Of a stretch of 26,010 nucleotides of DNA, positions 2-12,268 are shown piece after piece. Below the pieces are notes generated by a model, which worked only from the letters and a program-made list of their open reading frames with translations, had not been told where the DNA came from and did no database searches. The number at the start of each line of letters is the position of its first letter. The first letter of the stretch is position 1. This DNA is from a virus: IMG/VR virus record IMGVR_UViG_3300031578_000298, positions 1 to 26,010 of that record; one strand, written 5' to 3'. Both the position numbers and the translations under genes were made by a program.

Positions 2-2386
2 ATACAAGAGTTCCTCTCCCAATTTACTTTCGGAGGACTGTTAGCAATATCCGTTGGTACACCAGTTGGATCTGCGCATAAGTATTATAAGGCTGATGCT
101 GCGCTACCAACTATACCAACGGATGCTAATGTATTCTTCGGCCCTGCAATGCGCAGTACAGAAGGATCCGAGAAAGCTGACATACTTGGATCAACGGTGC
201 TCTGGGTTGATGTAGACGATCTACAACGACCTATGTGTACACTCCCGCCATCTGCATTGGTCTTCTCAGGCCACGGATGGCATTTATATTGGTTTCTTGA
301 TGCTCCCATTACAGACATCGAAATGCTAGAAGGTTTCAACAAGATAATGGTCGAAGATGTTCCAACAGCAGACATCGCATGTTGGAATGGTAACAGGGTA
401 TTACGTATACCCGGTACGATGAATAAGAAGGAGGCAGAACATGTTGCGGTACGTCTTGAAAATCTTCACCCCGAACGACGTTACAACGTGGCCGATATTA
501 CTGCCCTTGCTAAGCTGGACAGCAAGACGCGGCATAAGATTCGTACCGGAGATAGTAGAGGTTATCGGTCTCGAAGTGAACGTGATTGGGCAATTATCGT
601 TAAGTTGGTTCGCTGCGGCGCCAGTGACAGTCTCATACAAGGTATATTTACTGGGCAACCTTGCGGTGATAAGGCCGGAGAGAACAGCGCCTATCTGGCC
701 CAGACTATAGAACAAGTGCGCGCTAAGAAGATCTCGCCAGCTGATGAAGTATCAGCCGGAGGGATAGTTGAAACGGAGGAAGGTTATGTCATCGAAACTA
801 AGCGAGGCTTCAAGAGAATTAGTACGTTCACTCTCAAGCCCACAGTCCTTCTTGACGGGTCCAAGTTTGGTGCGGAAGACGCAATCGTCGCAAATGTTCA
901 TGCTGCCGGCTACACTTGGGAAGGTGTTACCTTCTCTCGTGGTGCCTTCACGTCCGTTAGTCGTTTTGATAAAGAAGCTCCGGTGGCGGCTTGGCAATGG
1001 TTGGCTCACGATGACGATCTGCGGGCGTTACTACCATACCTACTCGATCAACTCCGAGCAGAAGGATTACCAAAAGTCGGTGCTACAACAGTTCTTGGTC
1101 TACACAGGGTTCACGACGATTGGGTCTTCCTCGGTGACAAAGAAGTTATCTCTGCCAAAGAGGTTTGGGTAGGTCATGATGGCCCGATGTGTTGGTTACC
1201 GGTACGTAAAGAGCACCCCGAGTTAGGTCTCAACCCTGTGCTAAGCACTGCCGAGAAGAAGATTATTAGAGAACTTGTCCCTAAGTTGAACGAGGAGAAT
1301 ACCATATGGCCTATGATAGGATGGTACGCCGCCAGTGTGTTAAAACCGTGGTTAGAGGAAATGCATTACAGATACCCGATATTGAACGTCGCTGGAACGA
1401 AAGGATCCGGAAAGACTACTTTGATACAACGTGTTTTCCTACCGCTACTAGGTCAGCTGGATCCGAAAACATACGATGCGGGCACGACCCGATTTGTAAC
1501 ACTTGCCTTGCTTGGTTCATCCAACGCAGTTCCTATCGCGTTCAGCGAGTTTCGATATGAGCTGGTCGAAAGGTTGTTGCGCATTGTATTGTTGGCGTAC
1601 GACACGGGACATGATCCACGTGGTCGGGGCGATCAGACTACGGTTGATTACCCCTTATCTGCTCCGTTTAGCGTCGACGGAGAAGATCTCATCGAAGATC
1701 CTGCTGCAAGAGAGAGGCTCGTGGTCGCGCATTTACACCCGAAAGCTATCGCTGAAGGGTCGGAGGGTTACATTGCATTTCAGACTCTTCGTGAAAAGAT
1801 GCCGCCTGGTTTTGGTGGTTATTACATCCAACAAGTCCTCAAGTTAGAGCCGAAGTGGCCTACGTTACTTGACGAAGCCCGTGCAGCCATGTTCGAAGCC
1901 TACCCGTCTAAGTTACCCGACCGTGTTCGTGCCAATCACATCGTAGCATACTTCGGTATGAAGTTGTGGTGCCGAATAACAGGAACTGAACTACCCCCAC
2001 CAACGGTTCTTTATGAAAGCATCACATCCGTCTTCAATATAGAATCAGGCAGAGGCGCAACACTAGCCGACGCCATGGTTGAAGACGTCATAAACTCAAT
2101 AGCACAGGGTAGCAGTAACATTAACTGTGCGGTCGATTCAGCAGATGTTATCTGGTTTCAGTTAGCACCTGCTCATAGTTGGTGGGTAGCTTCACGTAGA
2201 CGTAGTGGCCGTGGCGCTCTCGAACGTGATGCCATAAGGGCTCAGTTGAAAGAGGCGCCCTACAGTCTCGCCCCTCAAGTCGTGAACGACGCTTGGATGT
2301 ATGGCATAGACCTGCAAAAAGCCGTTGACGCAGGATTGGATATACCCGTAAAGGTTTCCGACAGGGTATTCATAGTGAGGTTCTGA
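2..2386 (+). CDS. Primase-polymerase with C-terminal helicase-like ATPase, 5' end cut by window
   Basis: The frame is open from the left edge with no stop, so the true start lies outside the window; 794 residues are visible. Numbering from base 2, an archaeo-eukaryotic primase (PrimPol/RepB-like) core shows the metal-binding DVD at 70-72, SGHGWH at 89-94 and RIPGTMNKK from 135. A P-loop ATPase domain follows, with Walker A GTKGSGKT at 465-472 and a Walker-B-like VPIAFSEF ending near E516. The order primase then ATPase matches phage and plasmid primase-helicases that make primers and unwind the fork; whether the ATPase is SF3-like or DUF927-like cannot be settled by eye. It is the first visible gene of the + strand replication/modification block and ends 104 bases before queC. 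The role is fairly secure, the exact subfamily is not. Confidence 0.82.
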   Translation: MQEFLSQFTFGGLLAISVGTPVGSAHKYYKADAALPTIPTDANVFFGPAMRSTEGSEKADILGSTVLWVDVDDLQRPMCTLPPSALVFSGHGWHLYWFLDAPITDIEMLEGFNKIMVEDVPTADIACWNGNRVLRIPGTMNKKEAEHVAVRLENLHPERRYNVADITALAKLDSKTRHKIRTGDSRGYRSRSERDWAIIVKLVRCGASDSLIQGIFTGQPCGDKAGENSAYLAQTIEQVRAKKISPADEVSAGGIVETEEGYVIETKRGFKRISTFTLKPTVLLDGSKFGAEDAIVANVHAAGYTWEGVTFSRGAFTSVSRFDKEAPVAAWQWLAHDDDLRALLPYLLDQLRAEGLPKVGATTVLGLHRVHDDWVFLGDKEVISAKEVWVGHDGPMCWLPVRKEHPELGLNPVLSTAEKKIIRELVPKLNEENTIWPMIGWYAASVLKPWLEEMHYRYPILNVAGTKGSGKTTLIQRVFLPLLGQLDPKTYDAGTTRFVTLALLGSSNAVPIAFSEFRYELVERLLRIVLLAYDTGHDPRGRGDQTTVDYPLSAPFSVDGEDLIEDPAARERLVVAHLHPKAIAEGSEGYIAFQTLREKMPPGFGGYYIQQVLKLEPKWPTLLDEARAAMFEAYPSKLPDRVRANHIVAYFGMKLWCRITGTELPPPTVLYESITSVFNIESGRGATLADAMVEDVINSIAQGSSNINCAVDSADVIWFQLAPAHSWWVASRRRSGRGALERDAIRAQLKEAPYSLAPQVVNDAWMYGIDLQKAVDAGLDIPVKVSDRVFIVRF

Positions 2387-2490: not shown

Positions 2491-3195
2491 ATGAAAACGG
2501 TTCTACTCTTTTCGGGCGGTATGGATAGTACAACGTTACTAGGACTTCTCAAGTCTCAAGGTGACGAGGTACTATGTGTATCGTTCAAGTATGGCTCGAT
2601 GCACGAGAGTGCAGAAGGTCACGCAGCTTTACAGATAGCCCGGCATTATTTAGTAGCACGTGAGATCGTCACCATCAGCGAAGTCTTGTGGGCGGGAGGT
2701 AAGTCGGCGTTACTAAACCAAGCAGATATGCCACAAGGAGAGTATCAAGATGCCGAGACAGAAGGTCCTTCTTCTACTGTTGTCCCTTTCCGTAATGCTG
2801 TTATGCTTTCGCATGCTGTGGCGATGGCAGAGGCAAGAGGTTACGATCAGGTCGCCATCGCGAATCATGCAAATGATTATGCGCATTGGGCATACCCTGA
2901 CTGTAGTCCTGAATTTATTGGTGCGTTTACTGCAGCGACGTACGCTGGCACAGCCGGCAAAGTTCGATTGATGTCGCCGTTCATGTACAAGACAAAAGAG
3001 GAGATTGTCAAGTTAGCCCATAATCTGATGGTTCCGCTTGGTATGACTTGGTCTTGTTATCGTGGTGGAGCAAAGCATTGTGGTCGCTGTCCAACCTGTG
3101 TCGAACGTATATCAGCCTTTGTTAATGCAGGTTATATTGATCCCGTAGGTTACATACCCAACTTTGGTTGGGGCGCTAACCTGAAGGAGTTTTAA
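2491..3195 (+). CDS. queC: 7-cyano-7-deazaguanine (preQ0) synthase QueC
   Basis: QueC converts 7-carboxy-7-deazaguanine (CDG) and ammonia to preQ0 with ATP, the last step of preQ0 synthesis. The 234-aa protein opens with the PP-loop SGGMDST (residues 8-14). Near the C-terminus it has the four zinc-binding cysteines of the family, C189, C197, C200 and C203, in the context HCGRCPTC. The ATG at 2491 is chosen over an in-frame ATG at 2416 because AAAGGAGGT (2479-2487) sits just before it and the PP-loop falls at the expected distance from the N-terminus. There is no glutamine amidotransferase domain, so this is plain QueC and not the Gat-QueC fusion that leads to dADG. Its stop overlaps the queD start (TAATG). 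Confidence 0.95.
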   Translation: MKTVLLFSGGMDSTTLLGLLKSQGDEVLCVSFKYGSMHESAEGHAALQIARHYLVAREIVTISEVLWAGGKSALLNQADMPQGEYQDAETEGPSSTVVPFRNAVMLSHAVAMAEARGYDQVAIANHANDYAHWAYPDCSPEFIGAFTAATYAGTAGKVRLMSPFMYKTKEEIVKLAHNLMVPLGMTWSCYRGGAKHCGRCPTCVERISAFVNAGYIDPVGYIPNFGWGANLKEF

Positions 3196-3632
3196 TGAAT
3201 ACAATATCAAGACGTTATACTTTTAGTGCTGCGCATCGGTTAGAGGGTCACCCACGTTGCTCTCGTTTGCACGGTCATAACTACGTAGTCACCGTCAGCA
3301 TAATACATGAACAATCGAAGGACACTGGGATGGTTTTAGATTACGGAAGAATGGATGAACTCCTGAAACCCGTAATCGATCAATACGACCATCGTTACAT
3401 AGCGTCATCGGATAACATGCAGAGGGACGATCCCTATTTAGAGACTGCCGGTAAACAAGGTCATGTTATATATCCTGGTATCGCGTTCTCGACCGCTGAA
3501 TGTCTTTCCCAACGGATTGCTGCAGAGTGTGGTACGGCGTTGCGAGACGAGTTTCCATTCTATTTTACTCTGATAGTTGATGTACAGGAGTCGGAAAAGA
3601 GTCACGCATCGTATGAGTTGAAGGTGGAGTGA
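3195..3632 (+). CDS. queD: 6-carboxy-5,6,7,8-tetrahydropterin synthase QueD
   Basis: QueD makes 6-carboxytetrahydropterin (CPH4) from dihydroneopterin triphosphate, the step after FolE. The 145-aa protein has the PTPS/QueD zinc site H14 (FSAAHRL), H26 and H28 (LHGHNY), with the catalytic Cys22 before it. The second conserved region DHRY and the C-terminal acidic motif around ESEKSHASYE also fit the family. The length matches bacterial QueD, although there is a short insertion (about residues 75-92) before the IAFSTAECL segment. It starts inside the queC stop codon, so it is probably translationally coupled, and it ends one base into the next gene (TGATG). Confidence 0.94.
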   Translation: MNTISRRYTFSAAHRLEGHPRCSRLHGHNYVVTVSIIHEQSKDTGMVLDYGRMDELLKPVIDQYDHRYIASSDNMQRDDPYLETAGKQGHVIYPGIAFSTAECLSQRIAAECGTALRDEFPFYFTLIVDVQESEKSHASYELKVE

Positions 3633-3952
3633 TGGCTAAGAAGATTCCATACTATAAGACAGAAGCAGGTAAGGCTTCGCATCGCAAGTCGAACCTAAAA
3701 CGTCTTTATCAGATTACACCCGAAGATTATGCCGCGTTGATGTTGGTGCAGGACTTCAAGTGCGCTATCTGTCAACGTGATCGCGATCAGTTTCAAAAGG
3801 ATTTCGTTGTAGATCACAATCATGGTACTGGTAAGGTTCGTGCGTTGCTTTGTCCGGCGTGTAATACAGCCATAGGTTTGTTAGGCGACAACCCGGAAAT
3901 AATGGAACGGGCCGCCGCATTCGTGAGAGGAGCCGCCAATGCCAAAAAGTGA
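3632..3952 (+). CDS. Recombination endonuclease VII-like HNH nuclease
   Basis: This 106-aa protein has the layout of the endonuclease VII family (T4 gp49 and relatives), zinc-bound beta-beta-alpha-metal nucleases that resolve branched DNA. It shows C44-x2-C47, the catalytic core VVDHNHGTGKVRALLC (D61, H62, H64) and the second zinc pair C74/C77 followed by N78. An in-frame GTG lies one codon earlier, but the ATG at 3632 is preferred because it overlaps the queD stop and sits behind AAGGTGGAG. It lies between queD and queE, so it is co-transcribed with the modification genes. Likely jobs are clearing branched replication intermediates before packaging, or nicking. It could also be a homing-type HNH, but no intron or intein is seen. 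Confidence 0.85.
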   Translation: MAKKIPYYKTEAGKASHRKSNLKRLYQITPEDYAALMLVQDFKCAICQRDRDQFQKDFVVDHNHGTGKVRALLCPACNTAIGLLGDNPEIMERAAAFVRGAANAKK

Positions 3953-4211
3953 CATCGATGAACTCATTCAAGGACGTAACACGCAGTATGCTGAAGCGTG
4001 GCGTAAGACAGGTATAATGTCTCACCCAGTAGTAGATGACATTGCAAAGTTACACCAGGTATTTCCGGAGGGCTGGTACAATTGGGTTATCATCTTGAAT
4101 AAGCTTGTACGCTTATTGGGTGACCCCAAGAACATTGACAGCTGGCAAGACATTGCTGGCTATGCGACGCTAGTCGTCGATTATTTGAAAAAGGAGAATC
4201 AAGATGGTTAA
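3939..4211 (+). CDS. DUF6378-like phage protein
   Basis: The 90-aa product has the hallmark order of DUF6378 phage proteins: an N-terminal R-x2-x-Y segment (GRNTQYAEAW), a central amphipathic helix NWVIILNKLVRLLG, and DSWQDIAGYATLV near the C-terminus. The biochemical function of this family is unknown. The start overlaps the nuclease gene by 14 bases and has AGAGGAG upstream. The gene overlaps the next one by 8 bases. It is probably a soluble helical protein; a nucleotide-pool or regulatory role is only a guess from its place among the deazaguanine genes. Confidence 0.7.
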   Translation: MPKSDIDELIQGRNTQYAEAWRKTGIMSHPVVDDIAKLHQVFPEGWYNWVIILNKLVRLLGDPKNIDSWQDIAGYATLVVDYLKKENQDG

Positions 4212-4599
4212 GTTTTTAGAGGTTGACCCCAATGCAGTTGAAACACAAGCTATGACCACTTCACGTGGTGGCGTAATCGGACCCCTTATACAGGGCTTTT
4301 TGAAGACCGGTTTCTTCATGTGCGAGATCGATGCATCGGAGATCGGACGTAAACCCGCTTCGGTAAGTGCCAGCATAGCGGCTTATGCCGTGAACCATAT
4401 TGTACCTGTACGACCCATTCTGCGAACACCACATCTGTTCTTGCAACGACGTGATGTTGATAAGGATGGCAACGAGATCCCTGATTGGAAGGACGAGCTC
4501 TTAAAGAACTTCCAACAAGGAACGAAGGGTAAACCCTTACCTCAAGTTCCAACCATATCTTTCGAATCGGTATCCCTGGAAGACCAGAAAAATGAATGA
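4204..4599 (+). CDS. Unknown 131-aa protein between queD and queE
   Basis: I do not recognise this gene. It has a strong ribosome-binding site (AAAGGAG, 8 bases before the ATG) and overlaps its neighbours on both sides by 8 bases, which supports a real gene. Residues 20-85 look like a compact alpha/beta domain: a helix around LIQGFLKTGFFM, a polar helix SVSASIAAYAV and a strand-like stretch ending LFLQRRDVD, which may be a small winged-helix-like fold. The last 45 residues are charged and probably disordered. No catalytic motif or membrane segment is seen. The position inside the preQ0 cassette hints at a linked role, but nothing in the sequence proves it. Confidence 0.75.
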   Translation: MVKFLEVDPNAVETQAMTTSRGGVIGPLIQGFLKTGFFMCEIDASEIGRKPASVSASIAAYAVNHIVPVRPILRTPHLFLQRRDVDKDGNEIPDWKDELLKNFQQGTKGKPLPQVPTISFESVSLEDQKNE

Positions 4600-5233
4600 C
4601 TACCAAGTCAACGAAGTATTTAACACCATCCAAGGAGAGGGACTGAACAGTGGTCAACCGGCTACTTTCATCCGTCTCCAAGGATGCTCTGTAGGTTGTG
4701 TTTGGTGTGACACCAAGTACACCTGGGCCAAGGGCGGAACACGTTGGGCGGCTAGACCATTAGTCTTGTCTCTTGATTTGAAACCTCTCGTGGTTATAAC
4801 AGGTGGCGAACCTACATTATATAACCTTGACGATTTGATTACTGAACTACGTATTGTAGGTCAGCATCGTTGGGGCTACAACTTCAAAGTCCAGTTAGAG
4901 ACTTCCGGGCAGAACGAGCTCAAAGGGAATATAGTTCCTGACTGGATTACATGTTCACCAAAACCGAATCTGGGCTTTACCATTCCTCCCATGCTTGCTC
5001 GGCATATAGCAGAGCTGAAATGGGTCATAGATGATGACATAACCGAAGCCAACATCAAAGCTGGTTACGACTTCGTGAAGAACGTACAACCACAGAACAG
5101 AGTCTACAACATCTTGATGCCTGAAGGTACCCCGCCATCAGAAGATGCTATACACAGGGCGATGTGGATGTTGGAACTTCATCCGGAATGGAGATTTAGT
5201 GACCGATTACAGTGGAGGCTCAATGTCCGATAA
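4592..5233 (+). CDS. queE: 7-carboxy-7-deazaguanine synthase QueE (radical SAM)
   Basis: QueE is the radical S-adenosylmethionine enzyme that contracts CPH4 to CDG, the substrate of QueC. The 213-aa protein has the substrate loop FNTIQGEG (10-17), the three iron-sulphur ligands C32-x3-C36-x2-C39, and the SAM-binding TGGEP (70-74). Length and motif order agree with the family. The ATG at 4592 lies in the 8-base overlap with the previous gene behind a weak GGAAG, suggesting translational coupling. Its 3' end overlaps folE by 11 bases. All key residues are present, so the enzyme should be active. Confidence 0.94.
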   Translation: MNDYQVNEVFNTIQGEGLNSGQPATFIRLQGCSVGCVWCDTKYTWAKGGTRWAARPLVLSLDLKPLVVITGGEPTLYNLDDLITELRIVGQHRWGYNFKVQLETSGQNELKGNIVPDWITCSPKPNLGFTIPPMLARHIAELKWVIDDDITEANIKAGYDFVKNVQPQNRVYNILMPEGTPPSEDAIHRAMWMLELHPEWRFSDRLQWRLNVR

Positions 5234-5813
5234 ACCTAGTGGATTCATGCAAGACAGACTGAATGCGTATCCCACAGTTACCGTAGAACTGACTAACGCA
5301 TTGATTGACATATTCGGAGGAGACGTTTGGGATGACTCTCCTGTACGTACTGCCGAACGTTGGCTTTCAGCAATGAAAGAGTTTCATCCTGATGCCGAGA
5401 TACCGTTCAGCTTTACAACGTTCCCTGCAGTAGCGAATCAACTGATTGTAGTAGCAGACATACAGTTCGCATCGTTGTGTGCTCACCACCTGTTTCCGTA
5501 TAAAGGTAAAGTACATGTAGGTTACATACCTAACAAGTTGCAAGTCGGCGTTAGCAAGATACCTCGTTTGGTACATCACTTTGCAAAGCGTCCCACGGTT
5601 CAAGAAAGTCTAACCCGTAACATTGCCTCCTACCTGAAAACCAATCTTGAGGCAATGGGCGTAGCAGTTGTAGTAGAAGCCCTTCATACCTGTATGTCTT
5701 GTCGTGGCATTACAGAACGTAATGCTAGAATGGTAACGTCTGAGATGCGAGGGGTGTTCTTGACCGCTTCAGAAGCACGTCAGGAGTTTCTTGCATTATC
5801 GGGGTTGACATGA
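5223..5813 (+). CDS. folE: GTP cyclohydrolase I FolE
   Basis: FolE opens GTP to dihydroneopterin triphosphate, the entry step to both folate and preQ0; beside queC, queD and queE it feeds preQ0. The 196-aa protein carries the zinc site C86-x2-H89 in CAHHLFPYKGKVHVGYIP and the third ligand C157 in ALHTCMSCRGI. The QVGVSKIPRLV segment also matches type I enzymes. The in-frame region upstream (to 5145) is not used: GGAGG lies just before the ATG at 5223, and the protein then has a normal short N-terminus. It overlaps queE by 11 bases and dpdA by 4 (ATGA). Confidence 0.95.
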   Translation: MSDKPSGFMQDRLNAYPTVTVELTNALIDIFGGDVWDDSPVRTAERWLSAMKEFHPDAEIPFSFTTFPAVANQLIVVADIQFASLCAHHLFPYKGKVHVGYIPNKLQVGVSKIPRLVHHFAKRPTVQESLTRNIASYLKTNLEAMGVAVVVEALHTCMSCRGITERNARMVTSEMRGVFLTASEARQEFLALSGLT

Positions 5814-6562
5814 AGTACGCATTGATTGCCCCTCCTACCGAAAGTCTAAGACTTCTGGCCGTGTATGGTCTAACGTATCATATGGCCTTGGCGCAGTATG
5901 TTCTGAACGACGAACGTTATCAGAAGGTATATAAGATGATGCACGACTTGGACCACTTCATCATACTGGATAATGGCGCGGCCGAAAACGGAGTCCCACT
6001 AGACATCAAAGACATTGTTAAAGCTGCCAATCTAGTGGGAGCTGATGAAGTCGTTATGCCAGACGTACTCGATGACATAGACGGTACGCTTAGTAGAACC
6101 CATGCAGCGTTACCTTATATCCCCGCTCGTTATCGAGCAATGGTTCCTCAAGGAAAGAACTGGGGTCAATGGACAGAATGTCTTCGGGAAATGATTAATA
6201 TGGGTTGCGCTACCATATGTATTGCTAAACGTTATGAGGCTCTCAGTGGTGGTCGAGCCGAAGCCCTGAGCATCATTATGAAGAACTATTGGGCTTGGAA
6301 CCACCATATCCATTTATTAGGTTGCTATAGACGTCCGCTATACGAAATTCGCAGCGCCCTTAAAATGTATCCGCAGGTACGCGGAATCGATACAGCAGCC
6401 CCTGTGTCTTTTGCGCAGCATGATGACACCATCGGTGATGATACTATTTGGCATTCGTTGGATTGGGACGCCTCTATGGAGTATGATAGAGCATGTGACA
6501 ATGTGAAACTCATACTTAAGGAGTGTCATAATGCACGTAATATTACAGAACCAGGTTACTAA
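5810..6562 (+). CDS. dpdA: DpdA-like DNA guanine transglycosylase (TGT-like)
   Basis: DpdA enzymes resemble tRNA-guanine transglycosylases but exchange guanine in DNA for preQ0. This 250-aa protein shows the TGT-type barrel motifs: ILDNGAAENG with D54, VMPDVLDD with D85, VPQGKN at 112-117, the glycine of HLLG at 168-171 and RGIDTAAPV with D194, which aligns with the nucleophile segment of TGTs. The C-terminal zinc site (CxCxxC) of tRNA-acting TGTs is absent, which fits a DNA-acting phage form. It follows folE with an ATGA overlap and closes the cassette that makes its base substrate. Assignment as DpdA rests on motifs and context; the exact DpdA subtype and target motif cannot be read from the sequence. 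Confidence 0.88.
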   Translation: MKYALIAPPTESLRLLAVYGLTYHMALAQYVLNDERYQKVYKMMHDLDHFIILDNGAAENGVPLDIKDIVKAANLVGADEVVMPDVLDDIDGTLSRTHAALPYIPARYRAMVPQGKNWGQWTECLREMINMGCATICIAKRYEALSGGRAEALSIIMKNYWAWNHHIHLLGCYRRPLYEIRSALKMYPQVRGIDTAAPVSFAQHDDTIGDDTIWHSLDWDASMEYDRACDNVKLILKECHNARNITEPGY

Positions 6563-6779: not shown

Positions 6780-7045
6780 TGAAACTAACCGCAACAAGTA
6801 AGATCGTTCGAGGACAGGCTGTACACATAATAGAGTCAGCTGGTAAAGTTCGTCCTAAAGGTCGAGGTGATTCCGCTGACGGTATTGCCAACCATCTCAT
6901 ACTGAAGGGAGACAAAGTAGAGTTCGACCCTAACCGAAACACGGAAGATGTTCTCGTTAAAGGTGTTGACCTCGAAGCCCGTGTTGACATCAATTTTACC
7001 ACTGACGAGCCTGTTGAACCCGTGGAGATCGATGACGAAGACTGA
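6779..7045 (+). CDS. Unknown 88-aa protein with acidic tail, before the polymerase
   Basis: Not recognised. It is mostly strand-like and basic in the first half (KIVRGQAV, KVRPKGRGD), then LILKGDKVEF, and ends in an acidic tail (EPVEPVEIDDED). The ATG at 6779 overlaps the previous stop and has AAAGGAG upstream, which is better than in-frame starts further up. It overlaps the DNA polymerase start by 14 bases. A small beta-barrel with an acidic C-terminus beside a polymerase recalls single-strand-binding or processivity helpers, but no family motif supports that, so it is left as hypothetical. Confidence 0.7.
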   Translation: MKLTATSKIVRGQAVHIIESAGKVRPKGRGDSADGIANHLILKGDKVEFDPNRNTEDVLVKGVDLEARVDINFTTDEPVEPVEIDDED

Positions 7046-9446
7046 ACTACGCAAAGTACCTTACGCTAAGTGCGAACTTTGTACTTTGAAAGACGAACCC
7101 TTCGTACCTTCCTGGGGCGATCCTAAAGCTCGTATGGTTATTGTAGGAGAAGCCCCAGGCAATACGGAAGTGGATGAAGGAAAGCCTTTCGTAGGCATGA
7201 GTGGCATGTTACTCGACATTGCTATCACGGAAGGGGGAGGAGATCCTGCGGACACTTACCGTACTAATGTTGTACTATGTCGACCGCCAGGTAACCGAAC
7301 ACCCCAAGATAACGAGATACATTGTTGTCGGGAACGGTTGATCAAAGAGATACAGGGAACCTCAGGAGTTATTATGACCCTGGGTAAAGTAGCCTGCGAA
7401 ACCCTCGGTGTCCCTTTCACTCATAAATCAGCCTGGATCCAATGGGATAAGACCCACTGGTTGAAACCCGCTTGGCACCCTGCTTACATCTTAAGGAAGG
7501 CTGCTGAAGCCAATGTATTCCTGGCTGAAGTCAAATCAACCCTGTTAGGACCTGAAGTGAAACAGACCTTCGATCCGACTTGGAAAGTACCCCACACATA
7601 CGATGAACTCAAAGAGATGTTGGACGAGTGTCCAGACAATGCTTGGGTAGCCTTTGATATTGAAACGTCCCAAATAAAGTGGTATGACACTGTTAATAAG
7701 AAAGCTAACCCGATATTGATGTTACAAATAGCTTGGGATTACACTTTTGGAATTGTCGTTCCTGATGACGTTCTCTATGACATACCTGGCACAGGACCTT
7801 TGATTGAAGACTTCTTTCGGCGTGTGCGATCTATTGGGCATAACGGAAAGTTCGACGTTGTCTTCCTAAAGGCCCAGCTAGATATCGATGTTCAGTTGGA
7901 CTTTGATACCATGCTTGCACAGTATGTACTTGATGAAACGTTTCCTCTTGGCTTGAAGATGTTAGCCAAGTTATACTTCGGTATGCCTGACTACGAAGAG
8001 GTCTTGATTAAAGAGTATCTTACTTCCCGTAACGATGACTACTCTAAGATTCCTTTTGATAAACTTGCCGAGTACGGAGTACTGGACGTAATAGTCACGT
8101 TAAAGTTCCGGGAAGTATTCGAGGAGATGTTACGTAAGGAGGGTCAATACGATGAACCCTTTATGAGTCCTATCATGGAAGCATCAAGAGCATTTGCAGC
8201 CGTAGAGCTTCGAGGCTTCGAAATCGATCCTATAGCCCTTGACAAAGCGCATGAGATACTTGGAAGGAAGACGGAAGAAGCACGACTGCAGCTAATTGAG
8301 ATGTCTGGACATCCAGAACTGAATCCTAATTCACCAGTACAGTTATCCAAGATTCTATTTGATGAAATAGGTCTACCCGAAATTCGTAGCGTCAAGATAA
8401 AACCCCGTTCGACAGGTAAGGAAGCTCTAGCCATGTTGAAGGGAAAACATCCCCTTGTGGACGCCATTGGAGAGTACCGACGTGTTGCTAAGTTAAAAAC
8501 ATCATATGTAGACAACACGTATGGCTTGAAGGATGTAAACAATCGCGTACATGGTTCGGTGCTTATTCAGGGAACTGAAGTAGGAAGACTCTCAGTACGT
8601 GATCCTGCATTACAGACTATCCCACGAGCGTCGGACTGGGCTGGAGCTTTGATACGTGGTATGTATCAAGCAGCTAAAGGAAAGGTATTAATAGTTGCCG
8701 ACTATTCACAAGCTGAGTTACGAGTGATGGCTCATAGTAGTAATGAACCCTTCTTAATCGATGCATACCAGCATGACAGAGATCTGCATACAGAAGTGGC
8801 CTTGGCAATGTATGGCACCTCATATACCAAAGAGCAACGCAATCTGTGTAAGATGTTCAATTTCTCCTACATGTATGGTGGTACTGAATATTCCTTCGCC
8901 CAGGATGCTGGACTCCCAATTCACGTTGCGAGACAGTTCGTGGCAGACTATAACAAGAGTATGCCTACCGCCCTTGCCTGGAAGAAGAACCAACTCAAAC
9001 TAATGAAGGAAGTAGGCTGGGTCGAGAATGTTTTTCACAGACGAAGGCACTACAAGCTCATCACTCGTGACAACCTAGACGACGCTAGGAAGGCTTGTGT
9101 ACACTCCGTTATAGCAGGAACTGCGTCGGATCTTACTTTGAAGTCGTTGATAGCGGTAGAGCTCGATTATGGTATACCTACCGTACTAACAGTACACGAT
9201 AGTGTAATTGCAGAGATTGAGGGTCATGTAACCGATACTCCCGAGACCAACCCCAAGATGTTCGAACAGGCTGAGATTATACAACGTGTCATGGTTGAGC
9301 TAGGAGATAAGTATCAGAACAAGGTACCGTGGAAAGTAGATGTAGAGATAAGACGTTTCTGGTCAGGTGGCTCTATGTGGGTAAGAGAGAGCAATGGTGA
9401 CTGGACGTTCCACGATGCAAAAGAAAACTGGGAGACAGAATGGTAG
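7032..9446 (+). CDS. DNA polymerase I (family A) with N-terminal uracil-DNA glycosylase-like domain
   Basis: This 804-aa protein is the likely replicative polymerase. Residues 1-175 form a family 4/5-type uracil-DNA glycosylase domain: C14-x2-C17, GEAPG (39-43), PFVG (52-55), C83 and C98/C99 as Fe-S ligand candidates, and the WHPAYILR motif. A 3'-5' exonuclease follows with all four acidic residues: D209 and E211 (FDIET), D275 (HNGKFD) and Y348-x3-D352. The polymerase has motif A DYSQAELR (D557), motif B R603-x3-K607-x3-F611-x3-Y615-G616, and motif C VHDS (D723). Motif C has Ser724 where the family usually has Glu. Phe611 at the O-helix position is as in E. coli Pol I rather than Tyr as in T7. 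The start at 7032 has GGAG upstream and overlaps the previous gene by 14 bases. Confidence 0.93.
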   Translation: MTKTELRKVPYAKCELCTLKDEPFVPSWGDPKARMVIVGEAPGNTEVDEGKPFVGMSGMLLDIAITEGGGDPADTYRTNVVLCRPPGNRTPQDNEIHCCRERLIKEIQGTSGVIMTLGKVACETLGVPFTHKSAWIQWDKTHWLKPAWHPAYILRKAAEANVFLAEVKSTLLGPEVKQTFDPTWKVPHTYDELKEMLDECPDNAWVAFDIETSQIKWYDTVNKKANPILMLQIAWDYTFGIVVPDDVLYDIPGTGPLIEDFFRRVRSIGHNGKFDVVFLKAQLDIDVQLDFDTMLAQYVLDETFPLGLKMLAKLYFGMPDYEEVLIKEYLTSRNDDYSKIPFDKLAEYGVLDVIVTLKFREVFEEMLRKEGQYDEPFMSPIMEASRAFAAVELRGFEIDPIALDKAHEILGRKTEEARLQLIEMSGHPELNPNSPVQLSKILFDEIGLPEIRSVKIKPRSTGKEALAMLKGKHPLVDAIGEYRRVAKLKTSYVDNTYGLKDVNNRVHGSVLIQGTEVGRLSVRDPALQTIPRASDWAGALIRGMYQAAKGKVLIVADYSQAELRVMAHSSNEPFLIDAYQHDRDLHTEVALAMYGTSYTKEQRNLCKMFNFSYMYGGTEYSFAQDAGLPIHVARQFVADYNKSMPTALAWKKNQLKLMKEVGWVENVFHRRRHYKLITRDNLDDARKACVHSVIAGTASDLTLKSLIAVELDYGIPTVLTVHDSVIAEIEGHVTDTPETNPKMFEQAEIIQRVMVELGDKYQNKVPWKVDVEIRRFWSGGSMWVRESNGDWTFHDAKENWETEW

Positions 9447-10684: not shown

Positions 10685-12268
10685 CTATCCTCCGAGTGTT
10701 GTCTTTCGTCCGTTGAGATAGGCGATTGCTTTTTTGATTTCATCCAATCGTATCGCCTTCTCGTCAGGCGCTCCTGGTGGAGGAGGTGCAACAGGGTCAA
10801 TGTTAATCAAGTCAATGCGTATCCAACTTCCGGGATACACATCCAACAACTGCGCCCATCTGAATCCTTTATTGTCGGTAAAGAAACTTGTCATATCAAT
10901 AGTGATTCGTCTAAGATGTGCAAGTGAACCGACTACCGAAGCATACGTTCCATTTGCATCTGGGTGATTAGAGCGCACATTCAAACCGTTTGGTGCATTT
11001 ACACTAGCATTTGTAGCCATAGGCGACACTCCTTCTAATATTGAATCAAGTACGAACACAGCATTTCCCATATAGCTGTTGATTAGCATTTGATTTGGGA
11101 TAAGCACCCTACCGCTATCTGTGCGGTATGGGTCAAGTACAATTATGTTACTGTCATCATAACCTATTATGACGAACCAGTGGTTGAAGTTGCCAGGAAA
11201 CTGGGTAAGTCCTGCGTTTGCAAATAGAGTATAGACTACTAACGGTATTATTAACTGACCTGAGTCTATAGCTTGCCTGATGATGTTAATTGTAATAGTA
11301 GACTGTAGTGTTGAGTTTATATCGAATAAGTCTAAAGCCTTAACTAACTGATAAGCATACGTTCCAACATCGTTATTGGATATCTTCCAACCGTCCATCA
11401 AATACCAATCATCAGGCTTGACAACGATATCCTTTACCGCATTTACTACCATTGAACAGCAAGCTAGACCACAATCATTATTGTACGCATTTGCACCTTC
11501 ACCCAGTTGGCTTATAAAAGTGACGTCTAATTCTTTCATAGTAAACATCCTTACGAACCCATCGTCCGTGAATGCGTTCCAATCCAGATGATACCTGATA
11601 TTATCATACAACCCTTTTACTTCAAGGTAGCTTTCAAACTGTCTGCCTATTCCTGGCGAGTTCTGTAAAGCGTATTCGGCAAGTTCACTGACATGAGAGA
11701 TATCAAAAGGGTCGCCCCATAGAGCTATCTTAGCATCTACATACGCACTGTCCGTATAGCGTAAGTACCGAGCCTCCCAGTAGTTGGTGACCGTTGCCCA
11801 GTTCACCATAGCAGGACAATACTTTGACATGAACCAGTCAGCGCTATATTGACCGATAGGTACATGGTTGTTATCTACACACCAGTTGTGGAATGTACGA
11901 TAATAGTTATCAAGTTGCTGCGGCGTGAATTTAGTTCTATAAGCTTCGGTCAAGTCCTGCCGCATATAAGCTGCCCAGTCAGTCCAATATTGTTCATAGT
12001 CGTTGAACATACCTTTGGGTTTGAACAGTCTAACAGCACTCAACCATGTATCCTTTTGTCTTGACATCTGTACTGTAGGATCAACCCAATGATAACCTGC
12101 ATAAGGTAAGTTAACTCTATTACATTGGTCTACATGGTACTGAGCCATCACGTCAATATCATCACCGAAACTCAACCTTATCACCACGCCATCTAATACG
12201 GTAGCAAGGAGGTCATATTGAGCCGGACTGATATTGTTGTAATAACTAACGTCAATTATCAGTTTCAT
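10685..12268 (-). CDS. Modular endolysin: GH25-like lysozyme, C39-like cysteine peptidase, SH3-like domain
   Basis: The 527-aa protein has three parts. Residues 1-175 look like a GH25 muramidase: IIDVSYYN with D6, YHWVDP with D63 and the catalytic-type D90-Y-E92. Residues 245-410 look like a papain-like C39 peptidase: NDCGLACCSM with C266, NHWFVIIGYD with H363 and VLDPY with D379. Residues 425-487 (NGLNVRSN ... WAQLLDVYPGSWIRID) form an SH3-like repeat of the kind that binds cell walls, followed by a Pro-rich linker (about 492-500) and a short helical tail. It should cut both the glycan and peptide parts of the host wall. No signal peptide is seen, so it probably needs a holin, and small membrane proteins lie just downstream. 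Confidence 0.86.
   Translation of the reverse strand: MKLIIDVSYYNNISPAQYDLLATVLDGVVIRLSFGDDIDVMAQYHVDQCNRVNLPYAGYHWVDPTVQMSRQKDTWLSAVRLFKPKGMFNDYEQYWTDWAAYMRQDLTEAYRTKFTPQQLDNYYRTFHNWCVDNNHVPIGQYSADWFMSKYCPAMVNWATVTNYWEARYLRYTDSAYVDAKIALWGDPFDISHVSELAEYALQNSPGIGRQFESYLEVKGLYDNIRYHLDWNAFTDDGFVRMFTMKELDVTFISQLGEGANAYNNDCGLACCSMVVNAVKDIVVKPDDWYLMDGWKISNNDVGTYAYQLVKALDLFDINSTLQSTITINIIRQAIDSGQLIIPLVVYTLFANAGLTQFPGNFNHWFVIIGYDDSNIIVLDPYRTDSGRVLIPNQMLINSYMGNAVFVLDSILEGVSPMATNASVNAPNGLNVRSNHPDANGTYASVVGSLAHLRRITIDMTSFFTDNKGFRWAQLLDVYPGSWIRIDLINIDPVAPPPPGAPDEKAIRLDEIKKAIAYLNGRKTTLGG

Follow-up and report, generated by a model that had tools for sequence, protein, structure and literature searches.

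The window analysed here, the entire IMG/VR virus record IMGVR_UViG_3300031578_000298 (26,010 bases), is a fragment of a larger phage genome and carries on its plus strand genes for FolE, QueD, QueE, QueC and a DpdA-like transglycosylase. We conclude that the DNA of this phage very probably contains a 7-deazaguanine supplied by these five enzymes; we infer that the exchange takes place in DNA, that it runs through a covalent intermediate and which base results. Judged from sequence comparison, there is about an even chance that the main base is 2'-deoxy-7-amido-7-deazaguanosine (dADG), which we place slightly ahead of 2'-deoxy-7-cyano-7-deazaguanosine (dPreQ0) because the window DpdA falls in the group of Campylobacter phage CP220 and the window QueC shares a Gln-to-Ser change with the CP220 enzyme. 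In the proposed pathway, FolE, QueD and QueE would convert GTP to 7-carboxy-7-deazaguanine (CDG), and QueC would turn CDG into the amide (ADG) or further into the nitrile (preQ0). The compact DpdA would then swap guanine in the phage DNA for the modified base, presumably through a covalent Asp intermediate of the tRNA-guanine transglycosylase (TGT) type, and the modified guanine would protect the phage genome from restriction.

A first-pass annotation, made from the DNA letters alone, had placed the five genes within 2491-6562. All five were recovered there on family or structure evidence:

2491..3195, plus strand: QueC with the S-type motif YGSMHESAE (Pfam QueC, 2.5e-55; NCBIfam TIGR00364 above cut-off; motif comparison)
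3195..3632, plus strand: QueD, 6-carboxytetrahydropterin synthase (Pfam PTPS, 1.3e-24; TIGR03367, 5.4e-22, below cut-off; Cys, His and Glu kept)
4592..5233, plus strand: QueE, radical S-adenosylmethionine 7-carboxy-7-deazaguanine synthase with CX3CX2C (QueE models, 2.2e-27; PDB 6nhl, 5.6e-23)
5223..5813, plus strand: FolE, GTP cyclohydrolase I (Pfam, 4e-49; zinc Cys/His kept in 62/62)
5810..6562, plus strand: DpdA-like DNA guanine transglycosylase of the CP220/phiST/immuto subgroup (AlphaFold2 model with a mean predicted local distance difference test score, pLDDT, of 94; TGT fold with Z 18.5; profile matches)

The genes abut or overlap, as first described, but the cassette is not strictly continuous, since genes for an endonuclease VII of the HNH type, a DUF6378-like protein and a small protein of 131 amino acids lie between QueD and QueE. 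Ahead of QueC, AAAGGAGG forms a clear Shine-Dalgarno sequence, and GGAGG stands before the FolE start ATG at 5223.

The key residues had been called intact, and alignments to 53-62 homologues taken from viral loci related to the window (given below as L numbers) bear this out for the base-synthesis enzymes. Present in the window and conserved among the homologues are SGGxDS, VPxRN, YPDC and the four zinc Cys of QueC, the Cys, HxH, DH and Glu of QueD, the CX3CX2C and the GG of GGEP of QueE, and the CxHH and C of the FolE zinc site. Several NCBIfam QueE models match the window QueE, all below their cut-offs, and solved QueE structures, among them 6nhl, match it as well. The gene content of the 26-kb window, with all four base-synthesis enzymes and with neither an amidotransferase nor QueF, is that of group 2 in PMC6884629, the phage preQ0 + DpdA systems, although the window's transglycosylase is of another subgroup than CAjan DpdA or nt-1 DpdA2. 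Among 29 records including the window, true QueF seems to occur only in the distant relatives L052 and L083, which hold it beside this type of DpdA and are candidates for the aminomethyl base dPreQ1. QueF matches in several other relatives were judged by position to be cross-matches to FolE. Neither ArcS (PF17884) nor a class-II glutamine amidotransferase (PF13522) was found in the window or in 11 close relatives, among them four records of 50-56 kb which may themselves be incomplete; Gat, ArcS and QueF, none of which was visible at first, are missing from these larger records too.

The window DpdA (250 amino acids) gave no match in Pfam, NCBIfam or PADLOC and a weak one in PHROG (7.6e-6). The Pfam TGT model PF01702 matched none of the 29 records expected to hold a DpdA and all 14 of 14 control genomes. 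We read the missing match as sequence divergence, the Pfam model being an aid to detection and not a definition, and the fold and the motifs are those of a TGT. The AlphaFold2 structure (pLDDT 94, predicted template modelling score 0.91) is a TGT (beta/alpha)8 barrel that aligns with archaeosine TGT 1iq8 in VIA-align at Z 18.5 over 238 residues (root-mean-square deviation 3.3), and Foldseek matches comprise TGTs and 7ui4, a solved DpdA (DNA preQ0 insertase). The DpdA call, first made by eye, therefore holds. D54, N55, E59, G115, H168, G171 and D194 are invariant in an alignment of 42 sequences, and D85 and Q114 are likewise conserved. In the model, D54, D85, Q114-G115, H168-x-x-G171 and D194 lie at or just past the ends of strands 3, 4, 5, 7 and 8. 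This fits a correspondence to D102, D156, Q203, G261 and D280 of TGT, residues whose roles in that enzyme are well known; the mapping follows strand order and the TGT alignment. Pairwise alignment with E. coli TGT is non-significant alone and keeps the right register at QG, MGVG/LLG and GID. Because no pairwise hhalign comparison of the family, whether against CAjan DpdA, nt-1 DpdA2 or E. coli TGT, reached significance, the case for homology is built on the fold and the order of the motifs. The window protein has no CxCxxC motif and no space for the TGT zinc subdomain. On the predicted structure, it is confirmed as a member of the TGT/DpdA superfamily with the catalytic Asp pair and the base-pocket motifs, and it would act on DNA.

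The family profile of the window DpdA matches proteins of CP220 (8.5e-29), phiST (1.4e-39), BSP7 and Youna2. Its matches in nt-1 are only marginal, and in CAjan, 9g, Dp-1 and HVTV-1 it detects no DpdA. Nearly the full length of CPT_0056, the CP220 protein, aligns with the family (hhalign probability 99.3%). The transglycosylase of Flavobacterium phage immuto, 43.9% identical to that of CP220, was placed in the subgroup via this link and is annotated in GenBank as 'DNA_guanine transglycosylase (7-deazapurine in DNA), DpdA'. By sequence, the window DpdA thus groups with CP220, phiST and immuto and not with the CAjan/9g DpdA or the nt-1 DpdA2. The CP220-type proteins may be those named DpdA3 by Cui in 2023, a group reported to permit complete replacement; phiST DNA is likewise reported to carry dCDG.

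The closest match in gene order is found in the Bacillus phages BSP7/BSTP and the Weizmannia phage Youna2, where primase, QueC, QueD, QueE, FolE, DpdA and DNA polymerase A (PolA) follow one another and DpdA is 26-27% identical to that of the window; they differ in a Q-type QueC, an additional gene before DpdA and a DpdA annotated as hypothetical or wrongly. CP220 shares the DpdA group and the YGSxH state of QueC, but its pathway genes are dispersed across a 177 kb genome and its QueC sits on a separate long branch. In the Cellulophaga phage phiST a DpdA of the group lies near QueD, QueE and FolE, while QueC is missing and DNA polymerase III alpha takes the place of PolA. Immuto carries QueF, a formyltransferase-like gene and a Q-type QueC. 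CAjan and Rosebush have the same minimal set of genes, again lacking an amidotransferase and QueF (PMC6884629), whereas the CAjan DpdA, of 306 amino acids, is missed by the window's profile and the CAjan QueC is Q-type.

At least 191 stretches in IMG/VR encode this DpdA subgroup. Of the 48 non-redundant loci in which 6.5 kb or more lies 5' of DpdA, 35 hold all four base-synthesis genes, which excludes a chance association of the cassette. Six loci (L019, L020, L029, L038, L074 and L078) hold QueC, DpdA and PolA with no QueD, QueE or FolE nearby, and the 49.8-kb record of L038 holds no QueD at all; such relatives may draw CDG from the host.

QueC offers a clue to the base. According to a 2026 study, canonical QueC carries SGGxDS, YxQxHxxE, VPxRN, YPDC and a zinc motif, and YxQxHxxE is placed next to the pocket for the substrate (PMC13329287). 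The window QueC has SGGxDS, VPxRN, YPDC, the four zinc Cys and the CY tyrosine of the canonical cluster 1. At YxQxHxxE it reads YGSMHESAE, with Ser (S36) in place of Gln and one additional residue, and since this motif departs from the canonical one, the enzyme is filed as a member of the QueC family and not as a proven preQ0 synthase. The same S state is found in the QueC of the nearest relatives (L003, L007, L010, L014-L017, L019, L020 and L023) and in CP220 (YGSNHQDKE), whose QueC falls outside the window clade on the tree, although it sits on a very long branch of 2.36 and its placement is unsure. From these sequences, the change seems to have arisen twice, in the window clade and in CP220. 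Gln is kept in the sampled and scorable QueCs known or required to make preQ0, namely those of E. coli, CAjan, Arbiter (species Rosebushvirus rosebush, which stood in for Rosebush), Dp-1, phi47:1, immuto and the QueF-bearing L052 and L083. Since the QueC route to preQ0 passes via ADG, an enzyme halting halfway would yield ADG. We propose, tentatively and at somewhat less than even chances, that QueC of the window clade is an ADG synthase in which loss of the Gln in YxQxH halts the reaction at the amide, that dADG is placed in the DNA, possibly at most or all G, and that this change occurred twice. The S-type enzymes of L019, L020 and L038, which stand with no QueD, QueE or FolE nearby, would make more sense if the QueC product were something the host does not make. 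In CP220 itself, dADG replaces 100% of dG, as stated in a passage of PMC8306585 that cites Crippen 2019.

Several observations weigh against this reading or qualify it. The link from the S state to dADG rests on one characterised virus, CP220, whose dADG could come from another enzyme. All remaining canonical motifs are intact in the window QueC, fitting preQ0 synthesis, and the reported mutations (Y35, R99, Y131 and Y189; PMC13329287) do not include the motif Gln. The motif of HVTV-1, a dPreQ1 virus, is too diverged to score. L021 and L024 pair a DpdA of the window clade with an nt-1-like QueC, which has Gln in L024, and the host-product argument is weakened by L029, L074 and L078, which are Q-type with the same gene set as the S-type loci. 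A later enzyme could also lie beyond the window, which covers 26 kb of a larger genome. The additional residue is by itself not diagnostic, being present in a few Q-type QueCs. A co-evolution of C137 in DpdA with S-type QueC was considered and rejected as alignment-dependent, the CP220 Cys shifting two positions once immuto is added; within the window clade the coincidence is confounded by kinship. A comparison of L021 and L024 with L020 suggests that QueC was swapped independently of DpdA.

The strongest competitor to dADG, to which we give roughly one chance in three, is that the same system works with an ordinary preQ0 synthase and that the DNA contains dPreQ0, like the DNA of CAjan and Rosebush. 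The first-pass annotation had called dPreQ0 the simplest prediction. The absence of later enzymes from the window and the four larger relatives agrees with this, as do the TIGR00364 score and a gene set equal to that of CAjan and Rosebush, the phages on which the dPreQ0 rule is founded and in which 32% and 28% of G, respectively, are replaced (PMC6884629). However, the window DpdA belongs to a different subgroup from CAjan/9g, and QueC is in the CP220 state whereas the scorable QueCs known or required to yield the nitrile have Gln. On these grounds dADG appears at least as likely. We would also expect, with low confidence, a more extensive replacement than the 28-32% of the two phages.

Direct insertion of CDG by DpdA, with QueC acting elsewhere or partly, is unlikely. 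Candidates for dCDG do exist: phiST and the 51-55 kb records of L026 and L077 combine a DpdA of this group with QueD, QueE and FolE in the absence of QueC. In the window, however, QueC adjoins the cassette, and it is present in 42 of the 48 loci, including some that lack QueD, QueE and FolE.

Still less probable is that the genes boost host queuosine in tRNA instead of modifying DNA. The pathway enzymes are common to queuosine synthesis, and such a role was suggested for phages without DpdA (PMC6884629). Against it stands DpdA, a dedicated enzyme with a TGT fold that belongs to a phage subgroup; its lack of the zinc subdomain favours DNA over tRNA, and it lies near PolA in 51 of 56 loci with enough sequence 3' of DpdA. 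No QueF was found in the window, and mutation of dpdA abolishes DNA modification in CAjan (PMC6884629). Since DpdA is linked to replication genes (PolA and primase) and no tRNA gene was found in the 26-kb window, DNA is favoured as the substrate. Conversion of the 7-deazaguanine into a deoxynucleoside triphosphate for incorporation by the phage's fusion of uracil-DNA glycosylase and PolA in place of base exchange, a route once proposed for Campylobacter phages (as cited in a passage of PMC6884629) and for which the DUF6378-like gene within the cassette might speak, is the least probable of all, given a transglycosylase with intact catalytic residues from a family found in CP220 itself and the finding of neither a kinase nor a ribosyltransferase in the cassette that could serve this route.

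Modification of the phage DNA by a 7-deazaguanine, as first predicted, is well supported. The further suggestion that many restriction enzymes would be blocked is plausible, but how far the phage is protected would vary with the fraction of G exchanged. CAjan, with 32% of G modified, is protected and becomes sensitive to all enzymes tested without dpdA (PMC6884629), and 9g, with 25-27% 2'-deoxyarchaeosine (dG+), resists ∼71% of the type II enzymes tested (PMC5567051), whereas MED16 DNA, with 0.13% dADG, is cut normally (PMC8306585). As to avoidance of restriction sites, palindromes in the window are only mildly under-represented, both with and without G, and were given no weight.

While phage DNA modification systems of this kind are already known, it is new that a DpdA subgroup with little annotation so far is assigned, that this subgroup is linked almost constantly to PolA, and that the QueC motif may serve to predict the base. 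Members of the subgroup are labelled 'hypothetical', 'integrase/recombinase' or 'polynucleotide kinase' in public records; BSTP records use the latter two and 'NadR' for DpdA relatives, all three being misannotations. Since the subgroup escapes standard domain models and is encoded by so many IMG/VR stretches, environmental phages with 7-deazaguanine DNA are probably more numerous than counts suggest. Should the motif indicate the base, a one-residue marker in QueC would allow dADG phages to be told from dPreQ0 phages by genome sequence, which gene content alone cannot do.

The remaining features of the window are:

149..2386, plus strand: primase/helicase-like protein, its frame open to the window start, upstream of the cassette and kept 5' of QueC in L003
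3629..3952, plus strand: recombination endonuclease VII (HNH), outside the base pathway (PF02945, 2.1e-24)
3939..4211, plus strand: DUF6378-like small protein (PF19905, 1.8e-5, slightly under cut-off; homologues in other loci of the window's clade)
4204..4599, plus strand: small protein of 131 amino acids (homologues in about 12 other loci; AlphaFold2 pLDDT 73.5; weak winged-helix matches)
7032..9446, plus strand: family-4 uracil-DNA glycosylase (UDG) fused to PolA with 3'-5' exonuclease and polymerase (Pfam UDG, 4.2e-22; DNA_pol_A, 6.8e-73)
10685-12268, minus strand: putative endolysin with a C39-like peptidase domain at residues 247-381 (domain search)

On the plus strand the order is primase-like gene, QueC, QueD, endonuclease VII, DUF6378-like gene, 131-amino-acid gene, QueE, FolE, DpdA, two small genes and UDG-PolA; the minus strand, from about 9.8 kb, holds the endolysin-like gene and apparent tail genes. 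A Pfam search of the 149..2386 protein gave no match, and an annotated primase occupies the same place in Youna2 and BSP7. The 131-amino-acid protein was considered as a hidden modification enzyme and set aside, its model being of middling confidence, its only fold matches weak (best E 0.08) and its occurrence patchy; it is at best winged-helix-like and shows nothing that points to an enzyme. UDG forms the N-terminal part of the polymerase fusion, which is also found in L002 (2424-4742). The PHROG 17 match covers both parts, and the fusion itself is probably known. A reading of PolA as an aminoadenine (Z-genome) polymerase was rejected, since DpoZ models scored far under their cut-off, as expected for any PolA. 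A host search among bacterial genomes matched just four relatives, all of them too distant to point to a host.

In several phages a small gene that is absent from the window adjoins DpdA (L004:5384-5935, L005:5342-5905, L006:5490-5987 and CPT_0057 of CP220). Its product has a P-loop (AAA_18) in phiST and an NTPase-domain annotation in CP220, and is possibly a partner of the transglycosylase. L021 carries a tandem pair of DpdA-like genes, with matches starting at 7980 and 8600.

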